Of a stretch of DNA of 54,272 nucleotides, positions 5,182 to 9,751 are shown piece after piece (the stretch's first letter is position 1; each line of letters begins with the position of its first letter). Both the position numbers and the translations under genes were made by a program. The notes below the pieces were generated by a model that had not been told where the DNA came from, did no database searches, and saw only the letters and a list, made by a program, of their open reading frames with translations. The stretch is from a virus, in the IMG/VR virus record IMGVR_UViG_3300037502_000299, positions 1 to 54,272 of that record. One strand, written 5' to 3'.

Positions 5182-5376
5182 ATGGACCAAACGCTAGAGC
5201 TATTATTGTCTCGAATAGATGATCAGCGCAAAACAGTATTAATAAATTTAGGAGACGGAGCAGCAAAAGATTTTGCTTCGTACCAAAATATGACAGGATA
5301 TATACGAGGTCTATCCGTCGCAGAAAGTATCATTAAAGACCTTGCACAAAGAATGGAGACATTTGAAGATGAGTGA
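5182..5376 (+). CDS. Small conserved phage protein, unknown function
   Basis: This 64-residue helical protein sits between portal and co-chaperonin genes, with short spacing on one side and an 8-base overlap on the other. It contains a central DFASYQNMTGYIRGL stretch followed by a charged helix, a pattern I recognise from small proteins in the same spot of other podovirus genomes. No catalytic motif is visible. A GGAG ends four bases before the ATG. Confidence 0.7.
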   Translation: MDQTLELLLSRIDDQRKTVLINLGDGAAKDFASYQNMTGYIRGLSVAESIIKDLAQRMETFEDE

Positions 5377-5812
5377 CATACTCACAATGAATAAGAGCAT
5401 AGTTGATGCAAGCGGTCGACCAGTTTATATTCCAAGCGTAGATGAAGTAAAAGTAGAAGATATACCGATTGAAGAACGTGGTTTACAGTTACCTGAGCCT
5501 AAAGGATACAAGATACTTTGTGCAATTCCTGATGCTTCAGAAACATATAAAGGTGGTATTGTAAAAGCGGATTCAACTAGAACTATAGAAGAGCATTCAA
5601 CTGTAGTTTTATTTGTAGTAAAAGTAGGTGATTTAGCTTATAAAGATGAGACTAGATTTCCTACAGGTCCATGGTGTAAAGAGGGTGATTTTGTTTTGAC
5701 ACGTGCATACGCAGGTACAAGATTTAAAATCCACGGAAGAGAATTCCGCATTATTAACGACGATACAGTCGAGGGGGTTGTTGAAGATCCTCGTGGCTAT
5801 ACTCGCGCATAA
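5369..5812 (+). CDS. GroES-like (Cpn10 fold) co-chaperonin
   Basis: This 147-residue protein has the pattern of phage GroES-like proteins: a beta strand with an exposed loop (GYKILCAIPDASETYKGGIV), a VGDLAY element, a GPWCKEGDFVL stretch and a closing FRIINDDTVEGVVEDP. Viral Cpn10 proteins such as T4 gp31 cap host GroEL and help large capsid proteins fold. Its place just before scaffold and capsid genes fits that job. I chose ATG 5369, with GGAG nine bases upstream, over a TTG at 5342. Whether the mobile loop can contact GroEL cannot be read from the sequence. Confidence 0.75.
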   Translation: MSDILTMNKSIVDASGRPVYIPSVDEVKVEDIPIEERGLQLPEPKGYKILCAIPDASETYKGGIVKADSTRTIEEHSTVVLFVVKVGDLAYKDETRFPTGPWCKEGDFVLTRAYAGTRFKIHGREFRIINDDTVEGVVEDPRGYTRA

Positions 5813-7950: not shown

Positions 7951-8868
7951 ATGGCTATTTCACGTGCACAGCTCCTAAAAGAGCTATTACCAGGACTTAA
8001 CGCGCTATTCGGTTTAGAGTACAAGCGTTATGGCGAAGAACATAAAGAAGTTTATGAAACAGAGACTTCAGAGCGTTCATTCGAAGAAGAAACAAAACTT
8101 TCAGGTTTCTCAGCAGCACCAGTCAAAAACGAAGGCACAGCAATCGCTTATGACAATGCTCAAGAAGCTTGGACTGCTCGATACAATCATCAAACTATTG
8201 CTCTTGGTTTCTCTCTAACAGAAGAAGCTGTAGAAGATAACTTGTATGATACATTATCAGCTCGTTACACAAAGGCTTTAGCTCGCGCTATGGCATACAC
8301 AAAACAAGTTAAAGCAGCTGCAGTATTAAACAATGGCTTCAACACTTCTGGTTCTTACAACGGCGGTGATGGTGTTTCATTATTTAACACAGCTCACCCA
8401 CTTGTTTCAGGCGGTACAAACAGCAACACTCAATCAACTCCAACAGACTTGAACGAAACAGCACTAGAAAACGCTGTTATTCAAATTGCTGCATGGACAG
8501 ATGAGCGTGGCCTATTGATCGCTGCTCAACCACGTAAGTTAGTAGTTCCACCAGGTAATCAATTCGTTGCAACTCGTTTGCTCGAAACTGAACTTCGTGT
8601 TTCTACAGCTGACAACGACATCAACGCTATTAAGAATAATGGTTCAATCCCAGAAGGTTACACAATTAACCACTTCTTAACAGATCCAGATGCGTACTTC
8701 TTAACAACTGATGTACCTAACGGCATGAAACACTTTGTGCGTACTCCGTTATCAACATCTATGGATGGCGACTTCGATACAGGTAACGTTCGTTACAAGG
8801 CTCGTGAGCGTTATTCATTCGGTTGGTCTGATCCTCTCGGTATGTGGGGTTCACCAGGCGCTGCTTAA
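7951..8868 (+). CDS. Major capsid protein
   Basis: This 305-residue protein follows scaffold and decoration genes and has the strongest ribosome site pattern (CTAAGGAG). The sequence is of the Mu gpT / HK97-fold capsid type: an N-terminal helical arm (LLPGLNALFG), a charged E-loop-like stretch, a long central helix (YTKALARAMAYTKQVKAAAVL), an FNTAHPLVSGG element, and a C-terminal RERYSFGWSDP. It forms the icosahedral shell. A strong terminator lies 30 bases downstream, so its mRNA end is defined. Confidence 0.85.
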   Translation: MAISRAQLLKELLPGLNALFGLEYKRYGEEHKEVYETETSERSFEEETKLSGFSAAPVKNEGTAIAYDNAQEAWTARYNHQTIALGFSLTEEAVEDNLYDTLSARYTKALARAMAYTKQVKAAAVLNNGFNTSGSYNGGDGVSLFNTAHPLVSGGTNSNTQSTPTDLNETALENAVIQIAAWTDERGLLIAAQPRKLVVPPGNQFVATRLLETELRVSTADNDINAIKNNGSIPEGYTINHFLTDPDAYFLTTDVPNGMKHFVRTPLSTSMDGDFDTGNVRYKARERYSFGWSDPLGMWGSPGAA

Positions 8869-8898: not shown

Positions 8899-8925
8899 AA
8901 CCCTGCTTCGGCGGGGTTTTTCTTT
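8899..8925 (+). terminator. Rho-independent terminator after the major capsid gene
   Basis: An AACCCTGC stem arm (8899-8906), TTCG tetraloop and GCGGGGTT arm (8911-8918, one G-U pair) are followed by a T-rich tail. It separates the capsid transcript from the pqqA cassette, although partial read-through is likely. Confidence 0.85.
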
Positions 8926-8984
8926 GCCTGCTATTCATGATTTTCTCTATTTCACAGGCAAAATAAAAGCGTAATATGTGAAGC

Positions 8985-9001
8985 ATACACACGGTGTGTA
9001 T
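8985..9001 (+). promoter_or_regulatory. Perfect inverted repeat upstream of pqqA, possible operator/promoter
   Basis: ATACACAC (8985-8992), a single G, then GTGTGTAT (8994-9001) form a perfect 8-bp inverted repeat ending ten bases before the pqqA ribosome site. A TATAAA (8999-9004) overlaps the right arm and could be a -10 box, so this may be an operator-promoter. With a one-base centre it cannot form a tight RNA hairpin without opening some pairs, so a protein-binding site is more likely. No good -35 box is seen. Confidence 0.45.
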
Positions 9002-9021
9002 AAAATTTTAGGAGAACTACT

Positions 9022-9093
9022 ATGTGGACAAAACCAGCTGCAACAGAAATGAGATTTGGCTTTGAAGTAACTATGTACGTAATGAACAAGTAA
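9022..9093 (+). CDS. pqqA: PqqA, precursor peptide of pyrroloquinoline quinone
   Basis: A 23-codon gene starts at ATG with GGAGA six bases upstream and stops at TAA. The peptide begins MWTKPAATEMRF and ends GFEVTMYVMNK. This matches the PqqA family over its whole length: an N-terminal WxKP, a central R-x-G, and the invariant Glu15-x3-Tyr19 in EVTMY. In known PQQ synthesis the radical SAM enzyme PqqE, helped by PqqD, links this Glu and Tyr, and the linked pair is excised and made into PQQ. No pqqB-F is in the window, so host enzymes must act on it. It is flanked by two strong terminators directly behind the major capsid gene, so late expression is expected. The wording is close to betaproteobacterial PqqA, pointing to acquisition from such a host. 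Confidence 0.92.
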   Translation: MWTKPAATEMRFGFEVTMYVMNK

Positions 9094-9123
9094 TGATTAT
9101 CGTAACAGATTGTTATTAAATTA

Positions 9124-9144
9124 GGGGCTTCGGCCCCTTTTTTT
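9124..9144 (+). terminator. Rho-independent terminator after pqqA
   Basis: GGGGC (9124-9128), TTCG tetraloop, GCCCC (9133-9137), then seven T (9138-9144). This textbook terminator ends the pqqA transcript 30 bases after its stop codon. Confidence 0.9.
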
Positions 9145-9145
9145 G

Positions 9146-9154
9146 TGCTATAAT
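9146..9154 (+). promoter_or_regulatory. Putative extended -10 promoter
   Basis: TGCTATAAT matches the extended -10 consensus exactly and lies right after the pqqA terminator, with transcription expected from about 9161. A -35 box is absent, as allowed for extended -10 promoters. It would restart transcription for the next virion genes. Confidence 0.5.
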
Positions 9155-9274
9155 GCTTGCAAATAGTACGAATTCAGGTATTATTTGGGAATCCGGGTTA
9201 CCCGGTTCATTAGACTGTCCCGGCAGACGCATACAAGACTAATGAGCTTAACTTTGTATGAAGGAAAAAATATC
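9155..9274 (+). other. Structured 5' leader ahead of the virion gene at 9275
   Basis: This 120-base leader holds a perfect hairpin CCGGG-TTA-CCCGG at 9193-9205, followed by CATTAG (9208-9213) and CTAATG (9239-9244), which can pair around a GC-rich loop. The frame of the downstream gene stays open back to 9185, but the strong start is ATG 9275, so I read the stretch as untranslated. Its role may be mRNA stability or translation control; no known riboswitch is recognised. Confidence 0.35.
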
Positions 9275-9751
9275 ATGGCAATAACTACATTTAGCGGCCC
9301 AGTCCGATCACTCGCCGGTTTTATTACAGGTACAGATGGTGTTTCAACAGTTACAGCATCAACATTATCAGTAACAGCAGCTGATTATAATGGTCAAACA
9401 ATCAATTTATCACGTGCAGCAGGTATTACAGTAACTCTACCAGCAGCTACAGGTTCAAACGCTGTTTACACATTCGTAATTACAACAGCAGTTACATCTA
9501 ATAACTATGTTATTCAAGTTGCTAATGCAACAGATACTATGAATGGTTTAGCTTCAGTAGGTGGAACTACAGCTTCTGTATTTGGTACATTACCAGCTTC
9601 TGACACAATCACTATGAACGGTACAACAACAGGCGGTTTAGTTGGTTCTTATGTTCAAGTTACTGATATTGCAGCAGGTGAATACTTAGTATCTGCAGCT
9701 TTAGTAGGTTCTGGTACACCAGCAACACCATTCAGCGCAGCTGTAAGTTAA
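9275..9751 (+). CDS. Putative virion structural (decoration/fibre-like) protein
   Basis: This 158-residue protein is rich in Thr, Ala, Gly and Val with little charge, consistent with an all-beta virion protein. It starts MAITTFSGPVRSLAGF and contains DYNGQTINLSRAAGITVTLP, a pattern common in phage structural proteins that ends in short beta repeats. ATG 9275 has AAGGA nine bases upstream. It comes just after the capsid gene and pqqA cassette, so a head-surface role is plausible. No homologue with known function is recognised. Confidence 0.55.
   Translation: MAITTFSGPVRSLAGFITGTDGVSTVTASTLSVTAADYNGQTINLSRAAGITVTLPAATGSNAVYTFVITTAVTSNNYVIQVANATDTMNGLASVGGTTASVFGTLPASDTITMNGTTTGGLVGSYVQVTDIAAGEYLVSAALVGSGTPATPFSAAVS

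Follow-up and report, generated by a model that had tools for sequence, protein, structure and literature searches.

Why would a phage carry, behind its major capsid gene, a gene of 23 codons for PqqA, a peptide that is consumed in PQQ synthesis? The question is raised by IMG/VR virus record IMGVR_UViG_3300037502_000299, which was analysed over its full 54,272 nucleotides and is here called the window. The window is that of a tailed phage, as terminase, portal, major head protein, endolysin and DNA polymerase were all found in it. In its capsid protein it shares 64% identity with pelagiphage HTVC023P and 72% with a cyanophage group; no tRNAs were found in the window and no methanol dehydrogenase was recognised there.

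The pqqA gene and its surroundings in the window

A first-pass annotation of this DNA had read positions 9022-9093 as pqqA, pointing to a start codon, 23 codons, a stop and a ribosome-binding site. All of these are present: an ATG at 9022 opens a frame of 23 codons that is closed by TAA at 9091-9093 (Table 1). The assignment itself is upheld by two profiles that score the peptide well above their cut-offs, PF08042 of Pfam (42.4 bits against 21.1; E=6.4e-11) and the NCBIfam PqqA equivalog TIGR02107 (40.4 bits against 20; E=1.8e-10), and the peptide is the single PqqA match in the whole 54-kb virus record. It contains both members of the Glu-x3-Tyr pair that becomes PQQ, Glu15 and Tyr19, and in residues 2-23 it does not differ from a common Methylophilaceae form of PqqA. 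Judged by its sequence, the identity of the peptide as PqqA is secure. When a DNA probe for the peptide was run against the genome collection, the matches were labelled Methylophilaceae or broader groups able to contain them, and from the peptide together with the isolate phages described below we infer that the host of the window phage belongs to the Methylophilaceae. No pqqE was found in the window record, so that the host's enzymes must be relied on, which supports the dependence on host Pqq enzymes that had been suggested at the outset.

Table 1. Features of the pqqA locus in window coordinates
Feature	Position	Strand	Basis
Major capsid protein gene, upstream neighbour, outside the cassette	7951..8868	+	PHROG major head protein, capsid relatives
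Terminator-like hairpin with T-rich tail, between capsid gene and pqqA	8899..8925	+	
pqq box TTCATGATTTTCTCTAT, palindrome-type putative operator with degenerate right half	8934..8950	+	Matrix scores
Putative -10 element TAATAT, 21 nt past the box	8972..8977	+	-10 enrichment position in aligned phage cassettes
Stem-loop ATACACA-CGG-TGTGTAT, 7-bp stem, at predicted mRNA 5' end	8985..9001	+	Equivalent position paired in other phages
Ribosome binding site AGGAGA	9010..9015	+	Sequence
pqqA, 23-residue PQQ precursor peptide MWTKPAATEMRFGFEVTMYVMNK	9022..9093, stop included	+	PF08042, TIGR02107, selection, Glu15/Tyr19
Terminator-like hairpin with T run, downstream of pqqA	9123..9145	+	

The end of the capsid gene and the start of pqqA are 153 nt apart. 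The placement behind the capsid gene, stressed in the first-pass annotation, is correct for the window but does not hold as a rule: the cassette has many other insertion sites, and of the 51 phages with a closely related capsid protein (84-98% identity) whose flanks are long enough, 46 lack pqqA. From the capsid gene to the next ORF the gap measures about 100-190 nt in most pqqA-less relatives, as compared to about 380-520 nt where the cassette sits behind the capsid gene. Close relatives have strongly differing genes as the capsid gene's downstream neighbour, and its first few hundred nt of downstream sequence may therefore be an insertion hotspot. The leader of the next gene in the window (9150-9275) folds barely better than shuffled sequences (z -1.7), and a search of the window against Rfam gave no match above threshold; weak matches to a Brucella sRNA and to rsmX were discarded, as they rest largely on the two terminators. 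As a separate observation, a GroES-like (Cpn10) domain (E=6e-5) is encoded at 5342-5812, between the portal and capsid genes, and its product is possibly, on sequence grounds, a phage co-chaperonin for capsid folding.

Occurrence in phages and selection on the frame

A tblastn search of the 23-residue peptide against 50,697 phage records matched nine records of Methylophilales or Methylophilaceae phages (P19250A, Venkman, MEP301, MEP401, MEP402 and four Melnitz). Where we speak of all Methylophilales phages, these nine recovered records are meant; MEP431-434 and HIM624-A were not among the matches. The remaining matches were ctXG6705, a podovirus from a metagenome, and two contigs labelled as Acinetobacter 'phage', and a generic PqqA query returned the identical list of phage records. 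In 9/9 isolate records the known hosts are PQQ-dependent methylotrophs, which is in line with the role first proposed. The Acinetobacter matches were rejected as host DNA because the examined contig holds the host pqq operon: in CAKLQF020000010.1 (Acinetobacter phage MD-2021a), around position 108210, a bacterial pqqABCDE operon lies beside ppk in what looks like host chromosome.

The expectation that so short a gene would be overlooked proved right, as the frame falls below annotation limits and is unannotated in every isolate. It is missing from the annotation of deposits MT375522, KX815270, MW452941, OP830906/7, MZ577095-8 and MW202481, the opposite strand was annotated with a hypothetical ORF across it in Melnitz and ctXG6705, and a keyword search of papers on isolate phages did not find pqqA. 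IMG/VR was probed with back-translated DNA probes, and the counts are lower bounds. A 7-residue probe gave at least 120 matches, and all 120 of those listed are in-frame peptides of the WxxP...PqqA type, so that chance is not their source. Re-probing with a codon subset, which accounts for nine of the 120 listed, again gave at least 120 matches, and among the new loci in the matches listed 91/93 are PqqA-like and 2/93 are cut by the contig end. If the share of this subset holds, we estimate the total in IMG/VR at above about 1,500 contigs, a figure extrapolated from nine sequences. Standard annotation passes over these 72 bases, yet all recovered phage records of the group and a great number of viral contigs from the environment have them, so that an influence of phages on PQQ, and hence on methanol oxidation, may have been missed.

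The frame is under purifying selection. Calculated from 115 different copies of the gene in phage DNA, pN/pS comes to 0.20 for all codons and 0.30 outside the searched motif, and Trp2, Pro5 and Arg11 are invariant. Glu15 and Tyr19 are retained in 130/130 matches listed for a probe that spans the N-terminus only. Loss of these two residues in relatives and a lack of purifying selection had been named beforehand as findings that would speak against the gene; the listed matches retain both residues, and the pN/pS values of 0.20-0.30 are those of a constrained frame. Being a host metabolic gene that occurs in complete genomes of isolate phages and is maintained by selection (pN/pS 0.20-0.30), pqqA is a candidate auxiliary metabolic gene.

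Cassette structure, pqq box and 5' hairpin

The contexts in which the gene is found are many. Its upstream neighbour belongs to 70 families across 170 phage copies; diversity was counted by families of immediate neighbours because single-linkage clustering by shared ORFs chains nearly all loci together. In 55/170 copies pqqA is opposite in strand to both neighbours. Terminators follow it in 62/162 copies as compared to 1/162 shuffled sequences, and a ribosome-site motif is present in 153/162. That pqqA would be expressed late, along with the capsid gene, as was first supposed, is not borne out by this arrangement: a terminator-like site intervenes in the window, the cassette has its own predicted promoter with a host-type box, and other phages place it at many sites, where it is often transcribed in the direction opposite to the genes on either side. 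Lambdoid phage morons are small autonomous cassettes that have their own promoter and terminator and are absent from close relatives. The pqqA cassette likewise has its own promoter, as read from the sequence, and a terminator, and close relatives lack it. It differs from the lambdoid morons, however, in that it is carried by strictly lytic phages of methylotrophs, encodes a metabolic peptide and has an operator of host type.

This operator is a palindrome, CTMATGA-WWW-TCATKAG, which is common to host pqqA and pqqB promoters. Expectation maximisation (EM) on 122 host pqqA upstream regions recovered it as cTcATGAAttTcaTTAG, around position -126, in 95% of the regions and at 18.4 bits, as opposed to 6-7 bits for shuffled sequences; the starting motif had been picked by eye, and the shuffles were given the identical seed. 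With up to one mismatch allowed, the pattern occurs at 20 sites in ten host genomes, 12 of which precede pqqA and 5 of which precede pqqB, and with 17 of 20 sites so placed the box marks a PQQ regulon. Its presence upstream of pqqB as well in several Methylophilaceae suggests, at the level of sequence, a dedicated PQQ regulon. We found no description of the pqq box in the literature searched. A reading of TAATGATTATC as a Fur box was dropped, as the motif is the palindrome of the host pqqA and pqqB promoters.

With the host-only matrix, 53% of the pqqA upstream regions in phages exceed 8 bits, as compared to 0.8% of 1,199 upstream regions of other phage ORFs and 1.9% of shuffles, and in held-out loci the host-trained matrix fires in 37% versus 1.3%. 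The window box is weak by the host-trained matrix (9.0 bits) and scores 20.7 bits by the phage-trained one. At least one member of 41/70 context families has the box, 42/225 phage copies, about a fifth, have none, and behind the capsid gene it was found in 0/69 pqqA-negative capsid relatives.

What sets the phage promoters apart is their spacing. Among host copies with a box, the -10 element lies about 44 nt past the box in 105/107, whereas in phage copies it lies about 21 nt past the box in 102/183, and the gap of 21 was seen again in held-out loci; a -10 at the host distance of 44 occurs in 49 phage copies, with about 15% expected by chance. Assuming that the transcript begins about 7 nt past the -10 element, the phage box would be centred near -42, which is the position of a class II activator, and the host box near -65. 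Among 77 phage copies with the 21-nt geometry, the usual start of a stem-loop is 4-8 nt past the -10 element, at the likely mRNA start, with a stem of at least 5 bp in 82% as compared to 25% in shuffles and of at least 6 bp in 55% as compared to 8%. Since 34 different left arms occur among 42, the pairing is kept while the sequence changes. Host copies reach a stem of at least 5 bp far more rarely (27% versus 16%). Known 5'-stem stabilisers protect mRNAs, and by analogy the phage hairpin may protect the short pqqA mRNA.

Proposed role and alternative explanations

But why would one more pqqA be of use to a phage whose host already has the gene? Fourteen likely host genomes contain 1-7 pqqA each and at most one pqqE, which is present in 13/14. 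In line with this, 3-12 pqqA copies have been reported alongside typically single copies of the other pqq genes (PMC4109929), and the copies are separately placed and unequally expressed (PMC9851590). With one pqqE and 1-7 pqqA in the hosts, the phage would supply another dose of a consumed substrate and in doing so repeats the hosts' own course of having more precursor genes. The single pqqA per phage, set beside the several that hosts already have, weakens the case for a gain per infection.

As far as sequence can tell, the phages carry an intact, selected PqqA in a stand-alone cassette of box, -10 element, hairpin, ribosome site and terminator, and we think it quite probable that this is a phage moron which would supply an extra dose of PqqA to a Methylophilaceae host under host-type control. 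Transcription would rely on the RNA polymerase of the host and on the host regulator of the box, the hairpin would shield the short mRNA against decay from its 5' end, and host PqqD and PqqE would crosslink Glu15 with Tyr19, after which the remaining Pqq proteins would complete PQQ. The added PQQ might then keep the methanol dehydrogenases XoxF and MxaF loaded, and we propose that methanol oxidation and energy supply would thereby be sustained during phage production. We infer both the higher PQQ level and the dehydrogenase that would be served. To judge from the viral sequences, raising host methanol oxidation in infection looks like a widespread, overlooked strategy. With less assurance, but still inclining to it, we regard this mobile PQQ-precursor cassette, common to methylotroph phages, plugged into the host pqq regulon, with its altered activator spacing and 5' hairpin and with a consumed peptide as product rather than an enzyme, as the characteristic auxiliary gene of these phages.

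Could the cassette instead act mainly as DNA, its extra boxes sequestering the host regulator and so altering the host pqq genes, with the peptide being incidental? The box is indeed common to host pqq promoters and arrives with the cassette. However, titration would not lead one to expect a peptide under purifying selection with invariant Glu15 and Tyr19, copies that do without the box, or retention of the -10 element, the ribosome site and often the terminator, and we hold it to be very improbable. A shade less probable still is a decoy that occupies PqqD and PqqE and reduces host PQQ: it would suit a phage that has the peptide without the pathway enzymes, but residues 2-23 are those of normal host PqqA, both crosslinked residues included, with no sign of a defective substrate. 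We give no more weight than to the decoy to a PQQ-independent role, for instance in signalling or regulation by the small peptide, given that the conserved residues are those of a PqqE substrate and the box belongs to the PQQ regulon. The least probable of all is host DNA devoid of phage function, either recently transduced or present as contamination. Such contamination does occur, as the MD-2021a matches illustrate, but against it stand pqqA in complete genomes of isolated phages, no pqqB/C/D/E motif adjoining pqqA in the viral loci, purifying selection, the 70 upstream neighbour families, and a promoter spacing and hairpin unlike those of host copies.

An extra PqqA dose under host-type control resembles and departs from several known systems. 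The cyanophage psbA gene is an auxiliary metabolic gene of host origin that is thought to support host energy metabolism in infection. Different from psbA, pqqA encodes no enzyme or protein part; its product is a ribosomal peptide that a cofactor pathway uses up as its substrate, and the gene arrives with a cis-element of a host regulon. With the often multicopy PqqA of the Methylophilaceae the window shares peptide residues 2-23, the type of box and the stand-alone position apart from pqqBCDE, but it differs in the phage location, in the box, which in phages usually lies 21 rather than 44 nt before the -10 element, and in the hairpin, which is mostly absent in hosts. An earlier viral case is Lake Baikal virus VP_266, reported in 2020 as a methylotroph virus that encodes PqqA, for which a boost of methanol oxidation was likewise proposed (PMC7678222). 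There, PqqA was described from one representative genome together with methanol dehydrogenase, which was not recognised in the window, and the accessible part of that report yielded no analysis of cassette, promoter, prevalence or selection (PMC7678222). In addition, pqqA is among the viral genes listed from reservoir sediments (PMC13188868). What appears to be new is the near-universal presence in the recovered methylotroph phages, together with the operator common to phages and hosts, the changed spacing and the hairpin at the 5' end.

In coastal and fresh waters methanol is oxidised by abundant Methylophilaceae (OM43, Methylopumilus, Methylotenera, Methylophilus), and cultured phage-host pairs, such as Venkman or Melnitz with strain H5P1 and MEP301 with its OM43 host, are available for a clean test of the role of pqqA. 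The host pqq operator can now be traced to its regulator, and the cassette shows how a small phage mRNA headed by a hairpin can be built in nature. Other viral contigs, one of them 340 kb long, were also seen to encode PqqA peptides that differ from the Methylophilaceae form, and by their sequence these may belong to phages of other PQQ-using hosts.
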